DNA of 64,000 bases from Hellea balneolensis DSM 19091 (GTDB lineage: Bacteria; Pseudomonadota; Alphaproteobacteria; Caulobacterales; Maricaulaceae): positions 62,001 to 126,000 of the forward strand of contig NZ_AUAC01000002.1 in the NCBI RefSeq assembly GCF_000428525.1, in the 5' to 3' direction. The notes beneath the pieces were generated by a model, which was given only the letters and a program-made list of their open reading frames with translations, had not been told where the DNA came from and made no database searches. Every line of letters begins with the position of its first letter. Positions within the stretch are counted from its first letter, which is position 1. Shown one piece after another: positions 2,147 to 39,625 of this stretch. The translations under genes and the position numbers were made by a program.

Positions 2147-3901
2147 ATGGTGGCGTTTCTCGATGTCGAGACGTCTTGCCGTGGATTGCGTTGGCAAGCT
2201 CGTTGCGAAGATGAAGCGGCTATCACTCAATTAGAACAACTCAAATCACTTGATAACTTATCGGCTAGGCTCTTAGCGGGAAGGGGCATAACCCCGGATA
2301 TTGCGGATGAGTTTTTGAGTCCAACTTTGCGCGGCTCTATGCCGGATCCGTCCTCGCTTCAGGATATGGATAAAGCAGCCAAGCTGATTTTGGACGCTAT
2401 TGAGGCGAAACAAAAAATTACAGTCTTTGCAGATTATGATGTGGATGGGGGCAGCTCTGCTGCCCAGCTTATAAAGTGGGGGCGAGCATTTGGTGTCGAG
2501 ATAGGGCTCTACGTTCCGGACCGAGTTAAAGAGGGTTACGGCCCGTCTGTAGAGGCTTTCGAGCGGCTAAAAGCAGACGGAAATGACCTCGTCATAACCG
2601 TTGATTGTGGAGCCGCGGCCCAGAGCGCTTTAGAGGCGGCTAAAAATTTGGAACTGCCTATAATTGTTATTGATCATCACCTCATGCAGGGTGCTTTGCC
2701 GCCTTGTGCTGCACTGGTGAATCCCAACCGTGAAGATGATACGTCTGGCTTGGGGCATTTGGCTGCGGCTGGCGTTACCTTTATGACTTTGGTCGCTCTG
2801 AACCGCGAAGCGCGCCGGCGTGGTTTAGAAAATACGCCTAATATCATGAAATTATTGGGATTATCAGCCATTGGAACCGTTTGTGATGTTGTATCTCTGA
2901 AAGGGCTTAATCGCACCATCGTGAGTCAGGGCCTGAAAGTCTTATCTCAAGATGAAAATATTGGTATTCGGGCGTTGTCAGACGTAGCAGGAACTGCCCC
3001 ACCTTACACAACATATCATTGCGGCTTTATTTTAGGCCCCCGAATCAATGCTGGTGGCCGTATTGGTAAGGCTGAAATGGGTGCTGAGATGCTATCAACA
3101 GAAAATGCACAACTTGCCTATGCTCATGCTGCTGAGCTTGACAGAGTTAATACGGAACGTAAGGCGCTTCAAAAGCAAATAGTCAACGAGGCTTTGGAGG
3201 AGGCTGATAAGCTTGCGAATGAAAACTCGGTTATGATTGTGAGTATGGATGGGTGGCACCCTGGCGTCATAGGTATCGTAGCAGGGCGTCTCAAAGATCG
3301 ATTTGACAAGCCAGCCATCGTGATAGGCTTGAATGAAGAAGGCCTTGGGAAAGGATCCGGTCGGTCCATGCCGGGCGTGAATTTGGGCGATGCTATTACT
3401 AAAGCCAAAGAAGCCGGACTTCTCATTAGCGGGGGAGGTCATGCCATGGCGGGTGGATTGACGGTTGAAGCAGAAAAAATAGAAGCGCTCACAGAGTTTC
3501 TTAATAGAGTTTTAGCTGATGATGTAGCTGAAGCTCGTAAGAATTTATCTCTCAAAATCGACTCACTTCTAGCTCTGGGTGCCGCTAGTCAGTCTACAAT
3601 AGACCGTATTGCACAAGTTGCCCCTTATGGTGCTGGTAACCCTCAGCCCGTCTTTGCGTTTTCAGACCTGCGTATATCTTATGCGGAACGTGTAAAAGGG
3701 GGGCATGTTCGCTGTGCTTTTGAAGACGGAGTTGGGGGGCGCATTAGCGGTATATGTTTTCGCGCGGATGAAACAGGACTGGACGAAGTTCTTCTGTCCC
3801 CTAATGCACCCCGTGTCCATGTGGCGGGTCGTCTTAAGGCTGACAGCTGGAAAGGGCGCAATAGAGTTGATTTGCAGGTCGTGGACATAGCGATTGCATA
3901 A
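2147..3901 (+). CDS. recJ: Single-stranded-DNA-specific exonuclease RecJ
   Basis: 5'-3' single-strand exonuclease acting in recombination (RecFOR pathway) and mismatch repair. The 584 residues match the family. The DHH phosphoesterase core is clear: DYDVDGGSSA at about 96-105, TVDCGA at about 151-156 and the DHH triad in IVIDHHLM at about 176. The DHHA1 domain motif GGGHAMAGG lies at about 430, followed by the C-terminal OB-type region with APYGAGNPQPVF. The ATG lies 5 nt after glpX, with no strong Shine-Dalgarno sequence, so translational coupling is likely. A GTG at 2150 is an alternative start that would change only one codon. Confidence 0.95.
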   Translation: MVAFLDVETSCRGLRWQARCEDEAAITQLEQLKSLDNLSARLLAGRGITPDIADEFLSPTLRGSMPDPSSLQDMDKAAKLILDAIEAKQKITVFADYDVDGGSSAAQLIKWGRAFGVEIGLYVPDRVKEGYGPSVEAFERLKADGNDLVITVDCGAAAQSALEAAKNLELPIIVIDHHLMQGALPPCAALVNPNREDDTSGLGHLAAAGVTFMTLVALNREARRRGLENTPNIMKLLGLSAIGTVCDVVSLKGLNRTIVSQGLKVLSQDENIGIRALSDVAGTAPPYTTYHCGFILGPRINAGGRIGKAEMGAEMLSTENAQLAYAHAAELDRVNTERKALQKQIVNEALEEADKLANENSVMIVSMDGWHPGVIGIVAGRLKDRFDKPAIVIGLNEEGLGKGSGRSMPGVNLGDAITKAKEAGLLISGGGHAMAGGLTVEAEKIEALTEFLNRVLADDVAEARKNLSLKIDSLLALGAASQSTIDRIAQVAPYGAGNPQPVFAFSDLRISYAERVKGGHVRCAFEDGVGGRISGICFRADETGLDEVLLSPNAPRVHVAGRLKADSWKGRNRVDLQVVDIAIA

Positions 3902-3941
3902 AATAATGCTTCAAAACTTCCCAAAATAATGAAAAAGCCTC

Positions 3942-3970
3942 TTGCAAGGCTGTGAAGTGCTATATATATC
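3942..3970 (+). promoter_or_regulatory. Candidate tRNA-Glu promoter
   Basis: A -35-like TTGCAA (3942-3947) is followed, after about 15-17 nt, by the AT-rich run TATATATATC (3961-3970) that can supply a -10. This would place the transcription start a dozen bases before the mature tRNA-Glu 5' end. A short inverted repeat AGCCT/AGGCT (3936-3951) overlaps the -35 and has no T-tract on the plus strand, so I read the site as a promoter rather than a recJ terminator. Match to consensus is modest. Confidence 0.35.
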
Positions 3971-3988
3971 GCGGCTCACAGTTGATGC

Positions 3989-4063
3989 GGTCCCTTCGTC
4001 TATCGGTTAGGACGCCAGGTTTTCAACCTGGAAAGAGGGGTTCGATTCCCCTAGGGACTGCCA
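3989..4063 (+). tRNA. tRNA-Glu (TTC)
   Basis: Complete cloverleaf with encoded CCA. The acceptor arms are GGTCCCT and AGGGACT with a G1-U72 wobble, and the discriminator is G. The anticodon arm is CCAGG-TTTTCAA-CCTGG, giving anticodon TTC for glutamate. The T arm is AGGGG-TTCGATT-CCCCT. It lies alone between recJ and the DUF192 gene. Confidence 0.97.
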
Positions 4064-4122
4064 ACTGATTTACCTATAAAATAGCCCTTGGACAAACGCC
4101 GCGTTTTAGGTAAGTGAACCTC

Positions 4123-4602
4123 ATGAAACGCTTACTAATCATAACACTTTTTGTTGCTCTTTTCACTGCGCCAGCATTCGCCCAAACGTCAAAAGACGAT
4201 GTTGTGGATTTTGGTGAGCCCGTTCCTTTAAAGATTGTGTCTGAAGATTCGACGCATACCTTTTCTATTGAACGCGCCGTATCATTGGATCAACAAGCAA
4301 GAGGCATGATGTTTCGGGAGAGTATGGAGCCCGACTCAGGTATGCTGTTTGAGTTTGATCAGCCGAAAATTGCGACTATTTGGATGAAAAATACGCCTCT
4401 GCCGCTTGATATTCTCTTTGTCCGTTCAAATGGTAAGATTCTTAAAATTGAGCATATGGCACAGCCTTATAAACTTCGCAGTGCCTCATCCGAGGCCATC
4501 GTGGCAGCCGTATTGGAATTGCAGGGCGGCAGAAGTAAAGAGCTAGGCATTATGCCTGGTGATTTGGTTCAACATGAATTTTTTGGCACAGAAGCTAAAT
4601 AA
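4123..4602 (+). CDS. DUF192 family exported protein
   Basis: Small secreted or periplasmic protein of the DUF192 family, whose biochemical role is not established. An N-terminal signal peptide is visible (MKRLL, a hydrophobic stretch, then AFA-Q, cleavage near residue 21). The family core follows: R.LMFRE-type segment [34 protein letters not shown], then VLELQGG near the end. I place the start at the ATG at 4123, not the upstream in-frame GTG at 4114. The ATG gives a clean signal peptide and has AGGTAAG 9-15 nt upstream. It sits between two tRNA genes, and nothing in the context points to a pathway. Confidence 0.9.
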
Positions 4603-35207: not shown

Positions 35208-35806
35208 GCGGGGACTTTCAGGAAATTTTCGAGTATTTTTGCGCCGACGCGGCTACTGCGTTCAGGGTGGAATTGACAACCATAAACATTTTTATGCCTT
35301 ACAATGGCTGAAAAATCTTCTCCATATTCTGATGTCGCCAAAGTGATGTTTGTTACAGGAGCAGCGAAACTATGCACGAAATAGGCATAATCATTATCAT
35401 TGATGCCTTCGAGTAATGGGTCATCGCTTTTCTTGGTAAGTGTGTTCCATCCCATATGGGGTGAAGGTAGTTTTTTAGTGTTCAAGGCTTTCACGGTTCC
35501 AGGAACGAGGCCCAGTCCTTTTACAGGTGAGCCGCCTTCTTCAAGTGTCTCAAAAATCAACTGCATGCCAAGGCATATTCCCATGACAGGTTGCGTCAGG
35601 TTTCGTAAAGCAGGTGTTAGGCCCTTGGCATTTATGCTCTTCATTGCATAAGGCGCTGCGCCGACGCCGGGTAAGATAACGCGCTGAGCTTTTGTGATTG
35701 TTTCAACTTTGTCTGAGATCACAGCTTCAACCCCCAAACGGTCAAAGGCGAATTTGACCGATGAGAGGTTAGCTACGCCTGTATCAACGATAACGAGCGA
35801 CATCAA
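35204..35806 (-). CDS. hisH: Imidazole glycerol phosphate synthase subunit HisH
   Basis: Glutamine amidotransferase partner of HisF. The 200 residues carry the class I triad: the nucleophile Cys in GICLGMQLIFE (about residue 80), and His and Glu in CQFHPERSS (about 178-183). ILPGVGAAPYAM is the usual loop upstream. It overlaps the hisC-hisB fusion by 4 nt and hisA by 4 nt. Confidence 0.96.
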   Translation of the reverse strand: MMSLVIVDTGVANLSSVKFAFDRLGVEAVISDKVETITKAQRVILPGVGAAPYAMKSINAKGLTPALRNLTQPVMGICLGMQLIFETLEEGGSPVKGLGLVPGTVKALNTKKLPSPHMGWNTLTKKSDDPLLEGINDNDYAYFVHSFAAPVTNITLATSEYGEDFSAIVRHKNVYGCQFHPERSSRVGAKILENFLKVPA

Positions 35807-37443
35807 ATAACGCCTTTTGTCGAGGCGATATCTGTGCCGCTACGGGCAAAGGCGGGGCGCAGGGCACGGGCGACACCTTTGAAACTAGCTTCAATCATGT
35901 GGTGTGTGTTCTCGCCTTCAACATCAATTTGAATAGCCGCGCCAAGTGTTTGCGCGAGGCTCTCAAAAACATGTGGACACATTTCAGCTGGGAACTCACC
36001 TACATGATCTGTTGGGAACTCACCTTTGAAAGTCATTGCGGCACGGCCTGATAGATCAATCGCAACGCGGGCTTGTGTTTCGTCCATTGGCATCACAAAG
36101 CCAAAGCGACCAATACCTGCTTTATCGCCAAGCGCCTGTTTGAGGGCCGTGCCAAGGGCGAGGGCGCAATCCTCAACTGTATGGTGAGCATCAATTTCTA
36201 AATCACCTTTGCAGGTCAAGATAAGCCCAAAATTACCGTGTTTCGCTAAACTTTCGAGCATATGATCATAGAAACCAATACCCGTATCCGACTTGATCGC
36301 ACTGGCGTCATCCAAGTTCACGCGCACAGATATATCGGTTTCTTTAGTGGTACGGTGAACTTCGCCAATTCGGTCAGGACGGGTTTCCGGCAAGGCTATT
36401 CCAAATGCTTTTAGCGCAACTGTGTTCTCTTCTGGAGAGCCGATAGAAATGCGCATGTGACCAGTAGTGGAGCGGTAATCCCGAATCTTCACTTGCCGCC
36501 GGGCAAGTTCCCGCATCAAGGTCTCATCGTCTTTCACATCAATTAAAAGGAAATTTGCTTCGGATGGCCAGACCTTACTTATGAAAGGGGATGTCTGAAG
36601 CTCGGTGAACATGCGCTCACGTTCGAGCAGCCATTCATCCAAGCGTGCGGCATGCGTGCTCATGGCTGCTGGGGATAAGGCGGCTAAGATAGCTTTTTCA
36701 ACAGGCCGCGCAATTGGATAAGGTGGTAGTACCTTCAACATCAAAGTAATCACGCGAGGATCGGCGATTGCAACCCCGCCCCGTACACCTGCCAAGGCAT
36801 AAGCTTTGGACAATGTACGCATAGCAACCAGGTTCTGAAAACTTGAGATTTTCGTCGTGTAGCTTGGCAATGATGAAAATTCTTCATAGGCTTCGTCAAC
36901 GACGATTAGAGTCTCCGGGCAAGCCTCGCAGAGCTGTTCGACCAAATTATCGTTGATAACTGTGCCTGTCGGATTATTGGGCGTGCAGAGGAAGACAATT
37001 TTCAAGTTTCTTGCCGTCTTAGCTCTTTTTAAAACTGCCGCCGTATCCCATTGGTAATCTTTAGTTAGCGGCACATCAATAATACCTGCCCCCTGAATTT
37101 GCGCGCAAGTTTTGTAGTATCCGAAAGTTGGCGAACAAATCAGAATATTGTCTTGGCCATCTTCGCAAAACGTCCGGAGTAAAACTTCAATGGCTTCATC
37201 CGCGCCGCGTCCCACCATGATGCGTTCAGCTGTCGTGCCATAGAGATCAGCAAGACGTTGACGCAGAGCAGGGGGCTGTTGCTCAGGATAACGGTTATAC
37301 TCTTCCGCGCCTTTGACAGGCGGCGGGGCATAAGGGCTCTCATTTGCATCCAAATGAAGCGCACCCGTGGAGCCTCCGCGGGCCGAATAAGCGGCAAAAT
37401 CTACAATAGCTTTGCGGGCAATATTATCGGGCCAATTAGACAT
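35803..37443 (-). CDS. hisCB: HisC-HisB fusion: histidinol-phosphate aminotransferase + IGP dehydratase
   Basis: One 546-residue frame encodes two enzymes of the same pathway. Residues 1 to about 350 are HisC: LDANESPYAPPP, CTPNNPTGT, VVDEAYEEF and the PLP lysine in RTLSKAYALAGVRGG (Lys about 213). Residues about 358-546 are HisB dehydratase: VHRTTKETDISVRVNL, TGIGFYDHMLESLAKHG, the first metal site AHHTVEDCALALG (about 419) and the second NTHHMIEASFKG (about 513). Only about eight residues link them. There is no stop, internal start with ribosome site, or frame change at the join. The HAD-type histidinol phosphatase of enteric HisB is absent. Neither half lacks a key motif, so both activities are expected (steps 6 and 7, the reactions being IGP to imidazole acetol phosphate and on to histidinol phosphate). 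Confidence 0.94.
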   Translation of the reverse strand: MSNWPDNIARKAIVDFAAYSARGGSTGALHLDANESPYAPPPVKGAEEYNRYPEQQPPALRQRLADLYGTTAERIMVGRGADEAIEVLLRTFCEDGQDNILICSPTFGYYKTCAQIQGAGIIDVPLTKDYQWDTAAVLKRAKTARNLKIVFLCTPNNPTGTVINDNLVEQLCEACPETLIVVDEAYEEFSSLPSYTTKISSFQNLVAMRTLSKAYALAGVRGGVAIADPRVITLMLKVLPPYPIARPVEKAILAALSPAAMSTHAARLDEWLLERERMFTELQTSPFISKVWPSEANFLLIDVKDDETLMRELARRQVKIRDYRSTTGHMRISIGSPEENTVALKAFGIALPETRPDRIGEVHRTTKETDISVRVNLDDASAIKSDTGIGFYDHMLESLAKHGNFGLILTCKGDLEIDAHHTVEDCALALGTALKQALGDKAGIGRFGFVMPMDETQARVAIDLSGRAAMTFKGEFPTDHVGEFPAEMCPHVFESLAQTLGAAIQIDVEGENTHHMIEASFKGVARALRPAFARSGTDIASTKGVI

Positions 37444-38741
37444 TATGTTTTGCTTTCGAGTCTAAGGGACACAGCGCGTCTATGCGCTTCGAGCCCTTCC
37501 ATTTCAGCCAGCTTTTCAACAGCCGGACCAATGCGTTCCAAGCCTTTTCGGGTCAATTTTTGAACACTTATATATTTAATGAAACTCTCTAAGGTCACGC
37601 CGCTATAGGCCCGCGCTGCCCCGTAAGTCGGCAAAGTATGATTGGTGCCGCTGGCATAATCGCCAACAGATTCTGGCGTCCAGGGCCCCAAAAATATCGA
37701 TCCGGCGTTTCTGATTGCGGGTACAAGTGTATTTGGTTTGTTGATTTGTAAAATGAGGTGCTCAGGCGCGTATCGATTAATAATATCAACCACATCGCCG
37801 CGATTATCGGCTATTATCATGCGAGATTGCGCCATCGCTTTTTCTGCAATGTCTCTACGCGGAAGCGTAGCGATCTGAATGTCTATTTTTTTCCGGATTT
37901 TATCTGCAGCAGCCTGTGACGTGGCGACACATATGGCTTGCGCCAAGGTGTCATGTTCAGCTTGACTCAATAAGTCAGAAGCGACGAATGCTGGATTAGC
38001 TTTGTCATTTGCGACAACCATAGCTTCGCTAGGGCCTGCTGGCATATCGATCGCAGGGCCGCCAGGCTCCTGAGCTGCTAGGGATTTTGCCGTTGCGACA
38101 TAAGCATTGCCTGGTCCGAATATTTTATCACAACGCGGGATCGTTTCAGTACCGTAAGCTAAAGCGGCAATAGCTTGCGCGCCACCGCAAACATAAACGT
38201 TGGTCACTTTACAATAATAAGCCGCGGCCAAAATAGCAGGATTGACCTGTCCGTCTTTACCTGGGGGTGTTACAACGATGCGGTATCTCACGCCGGCTAC
38301 TTTTGCGGGGATAGCCAGCATAAGCAGAGTTGAAATAAGCGGGGCAGTTCCGCCGGGAACATAGAGTCCTGCTGTTTCAATAGCACGGGCTTCGCGGCGG
38401 CAGATTACGCCCTTCGTGGTTTCAACCTCGATATCTTTTGGTATTTGAGCTTGGTGGAACTTTTTGATGTTTTTGCGGGCAAGCTTAATCGCATTTTTCT
38501 GATCTTCAGCTAGGTTTTGCCAAGCTGTTTTCAGTGCCTCTTGTGGAACCTTTAAGTCTTCTAGGCTTACCCCATCAAATTTCCGGGTGAAGTCAATGAC
38601 TGCCTTATCACCTTCCGATTTGACCCTGTGCATTATGTCTTGCACAGATGCAATGAGCGCAGGATCGGACAGACCCGCAGGGCGAGATAGAGCGACTTTC
38701 CTCGCCGCCTCGTCTAAATCTGTCCAGATAAAGGTTTTCAT
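37443..38741 (-). CDS. hisD: Histidinol dehydrogenase HisD
   Basis: Zinc enzyme oxidising histidinol to histidine in two NAD-dependent steps, the end of the pathway. The 432 residues include YVPGGTAPLISTLLML, the GPGNAYVATAKSL motif, DMPAGPSEAMV, LLSQAEHDTLAQA with zinc ligands, NRYAPEHLIL and SVGDYASGTNHTLPT. Start and stop each share one base with the neighbouring genes (TAATG junctions). Confidence 0.96.
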   Translation of the reverse strand: MKTFIWTDLDEAARKVALSRPAGLSDPALIASVQDIMHRVKSEGDKAVIDFTRKFDGVSLEDLKVPQEALKTAWQNLAEDQKNAIKLARKNIKKFHQAQIPKDIEVETTKGVICRREARAIETAGLYVPGGTAPLISTLLMLAIPAKVAGVRYRIVVTPPGKDGQVNPAILAAAYYCKVTNVYVCGGAQAIAALAYGTETIPRCDKIFGPGNAYVATAKSLAAQEPGGPAIDMPAGPSEAMVVANDKANPAFVASDLLSQAEHDTLAQAICVATSQAAADKIRKKIDIQIATLPRRDIAEKAMAQSRMIIADNRGDVVDIINRYAPEHLILQINKPNTLVPAIRNAGSIFLGPWTPESVGDYASGTNHTLPTYGAARAYSGVTLESFIKYISVQKLTRKGLERIGPAVEKLAEMEGLEAHRRAVSLRLESKT

Positions 38742-39625
38742 TAGCTCATCATTTTTTCAATGGGGAGTACGAGAATCGCCCTTGCCCCCAAAGCTTTCAG
38801 ATCCTCAAGAGTTTCCCAAAATATATTTTCAGTACACACAGCTTGAAGCGCGACGAGGTTGTCACTACCGGCCAGCGGGATTATGGTCGGCGCGTCAGAC
38901 CCTGGTAGCAGAGCTGTGATGGCCTCGACTTTATCTTTAGGCGCGTTGAGCATAATATATTTGGTCTCGGCGGATTTTATCACCCCGTCTATGCGGCGCA
39001 TGAGCTTGTCGAGTAGGGCTTGCTTCTCAGGCGATAGCTTGCGGCCAGATTGGACAAGCACAGCTTCGCTTTCAAGAATCGTTTCAAACGCTGTTAGGCC
39101 GTTAGCTTCGAGTGTTGCGCCGGATGACACTAAGTCGCAAATACTCTCCGCGATACCAATAGATGGAGCGAGTTCGACGGCGCCTTTCATTTCTACTAAT
39201 TTGGCGTCAATATTCTGATCTTTTAAAAAACGCCCTAAGACACCAGGATATGTCGTGGCAATACGTGTGCCTTCAAGGTCACCGAATTTCATGATGCCGC
39301 TACTCTCCGATGCCGCGAGACACAGTTTACAGCGAGAAAAGCCTAGGCGCATTGTAATTTCAGCGTCCAGTTTGTCTTTGGCCACAAGCTGTTCCTCAAC
39401 CAAGACATTTTCTCCTACAATTCCGATATCAGACGCATCATTTGCGACAAAGCTTGGAATGTCGTCATCACGTACTAAGAGCAGATCAATCGGCATATTT
39501 TTAACGCGCGCCAGTAATCCGTCCCCACGAATAGCAAAGCGAAGTCCGCATTTTTTAAGAAGGGCAAAGCTATCATCAGCTAAACGCCCCTTTTTCTGAA
39601 GCGCAATTCTAAGGCGTTCGGTCAT
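38741..39625 (-). CDS. hisG: ATP phosphoribosyltransferase HisG, long form
   Basis: First and feedback-controlled step, joining ATP and PRPP. The 294 residues include the two catalytic subdomains (RLRIALQKKGRLADDSFALLKKCGL, then DLLLVRDDDIPSFV and GIAESICDLVSSGATLEANGL) and a C-terminal regulatory domain of about 75 residues with LPGSDAPTIIPLAGSDNLVALQAV. This is therefore the long HisG of enteric bacteria, which needs no HisZ. Many alphaproteobacteria have the short form with HisZ. It starts 9 nt after the TrpR-like regulator gene. Confidence 0.95.
   Translation of the reverse strand: MTERLRIALQKKGRLADDSFALLKKCGLRFAIRGDGLLARVKNMPIDLLLVRDDDIPSFVANDASDIGIVGENVLVEEQLVAKDKLDAEITMRLGFSRCKLCLAASESSGIMKFGDLEGTRIATTYPGVLGRFLKDQNIDAKLVEMKGAVELAPSIGIAESICDLVSSGATLEANGLTAFETILESEAVLVQSGRKLSPEKQALLDKLMRRIDGVIKSAETKYIMLNAPKDKVEAITALLPGSDAPTIIPLAGSDNLVALQAVCTENIFWETLEDLKALGARAILVLPIEKMMS

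Follow-up and report, generated by a model that had tools for sequence, protein, structure and literature searches.

A fused HisC-HisB protein in the histidine operon of Hellea balneolensis, and its proposed decay in related Alphaproteobacteria

The his operon and its fused hisCB gene

The window, by which we mean the whole stretch of 64,000 nucleotides of Hellea balneolensis DSM 19091 that was analysed, holds a seven-gene operon, hisG-hisD-hisCB-hisH-hisA-hisF-hisIE, with all genes on the minus strand and a family match for each:

38741..39625, minus strand: hisG, matching PF01634 and PF08029 (HisG_C domain)
37443..38741, minus strand: hisD, TIGR00069, 530 bits
35803..37443, minus strand: hisCB, 546 amino acids, HisC (about residues 1-350) followed by HisB/IGPD (357-546)
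36394..37443, minus strand: HisC domain of hisCB with PLP lysine K213, TIGR01141 at residues 11-347
35803..36375, minus strand: HisB (IGPD) domain of hisCB with HHTVED and HHMIE, PF00475 and NF002111
35204..35806, minus strand: hisH, TIGR01855, 215.1 bits
34482..35207, minus strand: hisA, TIGR00007, 235.9 bits
33721..34488, minus strand: hisF, TIGR00735, 336.4 bits
33116..33724, minus strand: hisIE, NF002747, 270 bits

The hisCB gene is a single open reading frame that runs from an ATG at 37443 down to 35803; plus-strand frame 1 over the same interval contains many stops. The hisD stop and the hisCB ATG share one base (TAATG), as do the hisCB stop and the hisH ATG (TGATG). Each half of the protein exceeds its curated NCBIfam cut-off, with 314.3 bits against 276.55 for the hisC model TIGR01141 and 235.3 bits against 231 for the hisB model NF002111. 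Pfam places Aminotran_1_2 at residues 33-346, with 179.4 bits against a cut-off of 19.7, and IGPD at 387-528, with 192.7 bits against 27. The initial annotation of this DNA had described a complete HisC and a complete HisB in one 546-residue chain, thus two consecutive pathway steps joined in a way unlike HisN-HisB, and our analysis bears this out. The short linker that it proposed is present as well, although it measures about 9 residues rather than about eight, given that the TIGR01141 match stops at 347 and the NF002111 match starts at 357.

The PLP lysine had been placed at about residue 213, and it is indeed K213, within RTLSKAY. IGPD carries two histidine-rich metal motifs, and both are found where the frame had been said to contain them, as HHTVED (420-425) and HHMIE (514-518). 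K213 and the residues H420, H421, E424, D425, H514, H515 and E518 are invariant across 19 aligned fusions. An AlphaFold2 model of hisCB has a mean pLDDT of 85.4 and a pTM of 0.82, and is weak at residues 23-49 and 537-546. HisC structures are the best Foldseek matches of this model in the PDB, with no IGPD structure among the best 50; a sequence search of the PDB matched both HisC and IGPD entries. Because both domains are intact, hisCB is predicted to be bifunctional, with a single chain serving step 6 as imidazoleglycerol-phosphate dehydratase and step 7 as histidinol-phosphate aminotransferase.

Profile searches of the genome (3.2 Mb, 10 contigs, 99.8% complete) find one IGPD, which is hisCB, and hisCB is also the only HisC above the TIGR01141 cut-off; two weaker aminotransferases reach 101 and 99 bits. 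By these profiles, hisCB is the only recognised source of either predicted activity in the genome. The window itself contains a PLP aminotransferase at 64-1035 on the plus strand, with 99 bits to TIGR01141 and thus under the cut-off. A Pfam scan at E 0.001 detects no HAD phosphatase domain in hisCB, and an inositol-phosphatase-type HisN candidate elsewhere in the genome scores 242 bits, below its cut-off of 275.

Similar to HisNB of the E. coli type (NF003937), hisCB fuses a C-terminal IGPD to another his enzyme; the IGPDs are near relatives, and the operon order is the same apart from HisN. However, the N-terminal partner in HisNB is the HAD phosphatase HisN, whereas in hisCB it is HisC, and hisCB fails the NF003937 model with 263.2 bits against a cut-off of 443, matching profile positions 163-355 only. 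With stand-alone HisC (TIGR01141; PDB 1gew, 7szp) it shares the full domain, the PLP lysine and the fold, but in hisCB the same chain continues into HisB. IGPD is a 24-subunit assembly; its PDB entries 7oj5 and 6ezm contain 24 chains each.

Fusions of his enzymes are a known kind. A 2007 survey names hisA/hisF, hisIE, hisHF, hisNB and hisIED (PMC1963479). Of these, hisIE, hisHF (HIS7), hisIED (HIS4) and hisNB resemble hisCB in joining enzymes of one pathway; hisC takes part in none of them, and no word starting with hisC occurs in the main text of that survey (PMC1963479). Nor is hisC among the seven fused his genes named in a 2023 review (PMC10138114). Word searches of open PMC papers, at the level of titles and abstract openings, returned no HisC-HisB fusion, and no HisC-HisB model is among the best 25 of 82 NCBIfam hits of a search with hisCB. 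The combination was thus not found in the literature searched. We also encountered another his fusion, in L360 (2488-3954, minus strand; G555) and L359 (3110-4393, minus strand; G656), where HisA and HisIE share one stop-free frame of 489 and 428 amino acids, respectively, placing steps 2, 3 and 4 on one chain.

Intact and derived forms among relatives

A stop-free match that spans from residue 7 or earlier to residue 545 or later of hisCB occurs in 52 of the 109 genomes from the window's GTDB family, and in a few further family genomes the match is broken by contig ends. Records from Hellea and Robiginitomaculum, at 66-92% identity, carry the fusion in a single stop-free frame; the carriers include R. 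antarcticum DSM 21748, and the type-strain record L078 holds it in a single frame without stops. The survey of the class covered 385 genomes, of which 5 belong to the window's order; a near full-length fusion was found in 8 of the 380 others, each time as one stop-free frame. In G512, the HisC and HisB halves lie on two contigs. Whether the fusion might already be a common form, as the initial annotation had considered, therefore receives a divided answer: it is common in the family and present in those eight genomes elsewhere in the class, but among the full-length stop-free matches listed for a phylum sample of 398 genomes, G000 and G005, none lies outside the order. Possible fusions in Bacillota (L085 and L088) were rejected as separate genes. 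In G247, a family member that is 96% complete, a HisC part was found (residues 1-351, in a frame of 364) with no IGPD match, which may reflect a contig end.

A fused HisCB also occurs in a his operon at 3101-9304 of L083, a metagenome contig labelled Mycoplasmataceae. A histidine operon of this type is out of keeping with a mycoplasma. Reading TGA as Trp makes the frames of L083 whole or lengthens them, and of 11 aligned TGA codons 5 stand opposite a Trp in the window's proteins, as against 0 of 3 TGG codons; no tRNA genes were found on the piece examined. L083 may perhaps derive from an alphaproteobacterium that uses code 4.

What has become of the operon across the order? We took 80 his regions, chosen to cover genera and not at random, and assigned their states by stop-to-stop translation. 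The window's operon type is present in 75 of them, some broken by contig ends, with 20 intact, 18 lysine-less, 26 relic and 11 HisD-HisB regions; the remaining five comprise four ordinary hisB loci and one HisNB (L279). In the lysine-less form a recognisable HisC lacks its PLP lysine. In place of the lysine, f3 g20 has L, g54 has F or Y, g36 has P, f4 g30 has L, Q, A, Y, M or I, and f5 g34 has S, L or A. Among the 14 rows of g20, 12 have L and two have K, the latter both from genome G111. The relic form has an N-terminal part of 190-233 residues with little or no similarity to HisC. In the HisD-HisB form, HisD and HisB share one stop-free frame, with 12-31 residues between the aligned parts. 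Pfam reports HisD plus IGPD in L217, L270 and L237. In L263, L260 and L258 it finds a reduced-score aminotransferase match plus IGPD, and in L205, L224 and L351 an IGPD with no aminotransferase match. An overlap of 1 or 4 bases between the hisD stop and the start of the hisB frame, whether ATG or GTG, is present in 22 of 25 intact rows, 13 of 17 lysine-less rows and 17 of 27 relic rows.

The short N-terminal parts are probably relics of HisC, to judge from their position between hisD and HisB, the retained start overlap and a weak sequence similarity. Taken together as a profile, the 26 relic parts match intact fused HisC over its C-terminal half (E 1.7e-4, probability 49.5). Individually, the best matches to HisC are those of L224 (1.2e-5) and L227 (6e-4); most single relics give no significant match and some none at all, and where matches are present they fall mostly on the same two HisC regions, in order.

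Loss of HisC from the fusion goes together with a second HisC gene, which we counted only above the TIGR01141 cut-off. A decayed form is accompanied by a separate HisC in 83 of 84 genomes, whose states were read as regions in 55, by the lysine column in 10 and from match coverage, hence indirectly, in 19; the exception, G094, lies just under the cut-off at 275.6 bits. Among genomes with an intact fusion, 27 of 38 have no other HisC over the cut-off and 11 have a second one. The first set of 80 genomes comprised 37 intact (11 with a second HisC) and 41 decayed genomes (40 with a separate HisC), along with G209 (HisNB, no HisC) and G309 (no HisB match, HisC present); the further set added 43 decayed genomes, all with a separate HisC, and one intact genome without (G327). 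Outside the order, seven of the eight fusions have no second HisC over the cut-off and G730 has one, and the relic genome G510 has a HisC just under it, at 272.1 bits. The pattern fits a decay that would proceed only where another HisC covers the function. A second HisC does not force decay, since 11 of the 38 intact fusions coexist with one, and an independent-pairs test of decay against second HisC yields 4-5 pairs, too few to reach significance. G198 holds, besides its intact fusion, a second, divergent HisC near a HisB with 39% identity to that of the window (G198:C10:2388-4976).

In 16 relic and 8 lysine-less pairs the dN/dS of the upstream part is 0.045-0.54, against 0.012-0.18 for HisB, and it exceeds that of HisB in all 24, usually several-fold. 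Values under 1 indicate that the part is still coding and constrained. The dN/dS of intact HisC was dropped as a control, as synonymous change has reached saturation in 5 of 7 pairs and only two values (0.07 and 0.20) are usable. By pN/pS, intact fused HisC (0.22-0.37, 7 pairs) falls inside the relics' range of 0.12-0.58, which runs against a simple story of relaxation.

These values bear on the main rival to decay, namely that the lysine-less HisC is a pseudoenzyme kept for a structural or regulatory role for HisB, such as ligand sensing or holding the HisB shell. All 12 lysine-less loci examined in f3 g20 retain the motif SLSLAxGLAG, and there the domain has a dN/dS of 0.17-0.39 in five pairs; each of the 26 relic regions keeps its short part open and in frame, and the pN/pS of these parts does not clearly exceed that of intact HisC. 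Set against this, the domain has a higher dN/dS than HisB in every pair compared, the lengths of the parts vary from 190 to 363 residues, the residues that replace the lysine are varied, and the domain is wholly absent in more than one lineage. We regard a maintained pseudoenzyme as a possibility of some weight, though on balance a doubtful one.

Ancestry of the operon

Trees were of the 'quick' type with SH-aLRT support, and 'gamma' rows were assigned by record title, a few of which say only Proteobacteria. The operon tree, which is not a species tree, combines seven proteins in 100 rows (31 intact, 18 lysine-less, 26 relic, 11 HisD-HisB and 14 gamma HisNB) and leaves out L279, L356, L086 (contig end) and L216 and L100 (fewer than 4 genes). 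A branch with support 99* splits the gamma rows from all others, and on the non-gamma side the earliest forks are intact fusions, several without a resolved order. This places the operon, as far as these trees go, as sister to the gammaproteobacterial hisGDC(NB)HAF(IE) operons. The intact/decayed label needs 5 changes on this tree; grouping all decayed rows as one clade is rejected (p-AU 2e-63), as is a single clade of HisD-HisB rows (p-AU 6e-6).

In the HisB tree, the clade's HisB groups with gamma HisNB, apart from the ordinary HisB of the class (98*), and in the HisC tree fused HisC groups with gamma HisC, split from the ordinary HisC of the class with 100*. In all 17 decayed genomes included, the separate HisC groups with ordinary HisC; exceptions on the fused/gamma side are the separate HisC L364 (G530) and three of f140 and f24. 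The HisB gene alone does not settle an origin from HisNB or a single origin, because the fused group f113 stands beside the HisNB of Woeseiaceae (gamma) with support 93 and L279, a HisNB, falls on the ordinary-HisB side, near a root that the tree does not resolve. L279 (G209) and L356 (G530) had first been taken as relics and were rejected as such, lying outside the clade in the HisB tree. The L279 gene at 3447-4598, from the same order, is a HisNB with 441.8 bits against the cut-off of 443; its operon reads hisG-hisD-hisNB-hisH-hisA-hisF-hisIE, and G209 has no HisC over the cut-off.

The simplest reading is that a gamma-type operon lost HisN and met a resident HisC; the loss of HisN and its direction are what we infer from this topology. 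Could the fusion instead have more than one origin, by repeated joining of neighbouring hisC and hisB (or hisNB) genes? The f113 placement would suit this, the HisC tree requires 3 changes of the 'fused' label, and hisD is absent between hisG and hisCB in L343, L344, L346, L348, L349 and L350. Moreover, in 5 of 14 gammaproteobacterial regions (L401, L402, L403, L408 and L409) hisC and hisNB are in phase with a single stop codon between them. However, every fused or derived row falls to the same side of the 99* branch in the seven-protein tree, and the starred branches of the HisB and HisC trees do not force a second origin, so that we consider repeated origin unlikely relative to one origin by loss of HisN. 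Apparent HisC-HisN-HisB triple fusions in gammaproteobacteria (frames of 716-786 amino acids) were rejected, the frames being separate in 14 of 14 regions translated.

Proposed retention, decay and replacement of the fusion

We therefore favour, with a probability of about three in four, a joint reading in which hisCB is bifunctional, descends from a gamma-type operon by loss of HisN, and decays where a separate HisC is present. The ancestor would have been a gammaproteobacterial-type operon, hisG-D-C-(NB)-H-A-F-(IE), in which loss of the HisN phosphatase part brought HisC to abut HisB. The fusion would be retained as long as it supplies the only HisC; where a native stand-alone HisC is present, the fused HisC would be free to decay, presumably first by loss of the PLP lysine and then by shrinkage to a relic. 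Translation of HisB would now begin at the former hisC start codon, which shares bases with the hisD stop, and for this reason the relic could not simply be dropped. The persistence of the dead parts would be best explained by translation in this way. Complete removal of the HisC stretch would join HisD to HisB, and in the HisD-HisB forms HisB might possibly have a second, internal start.

A more general form of this reading is serial turnover of partners, in which HisB has been tied to HisN, HisC and HisD in turn and each fusion hands the translation start upstream. A redundant neighbour would die and stay as a non-catalytic domain, whether a pseudo-aminotransferase or a 200-residue relic, until a later deletion welds HisB to the next gene up. 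We give this extension an even chance.

The initial annotation had suggested that the fusion could channel imidazole acetol phosphate. The HisB and HisC steps are consecutive, many genera keep intact fusions, and most intact genomes (27 of 38) lack another HisC over the cut-off, which would suit selection for channelling or for a 1:1 ratio. However, the order HisC then HisB in the chain is simply that of the operon, and relatives in more than one lineage have lost the catalytic lysine, most of the HisC domain or the whole of it. As a separate HisC is present in 83 of 84 such genomes, the linkage of the two steps is dispensable in these relatives, and the repeated decay argues against channelling, which is not supported and which we judge, with the ratio, to be improbable as the reason for retention. 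A sequencing or assembly artefact at the junction, such as the frameshift that the initial annotation had set as a possible refutation, is excluded for practical purposes by the stop-free full-length match in 52 of 109 family genomes and the single frame of L078.

Fusions of neighbouring pathway enzymes are usually interpreted as beneficial for channelling or stoichiometry. In this order, living members display an intact fusion, redundancy, lysine loss, a shrunken part and a replacement fusion, and since all these states occur within one order, adaptive fusions and merely locked-in ones become directly testable against each other. For annotation, there is a warning in that a dead HisC, or what is probably its relic, is attached to many of the HisB proteins of these genera. 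If serial turnover is true, it can be gene order and translational coupling, instead of channelling, that ratchet enzyme fusions into place, and HisD-HisB, with steps 6 and 9-10 on one chain, would be a further new bifunctional enzyme that has arisen more than once.
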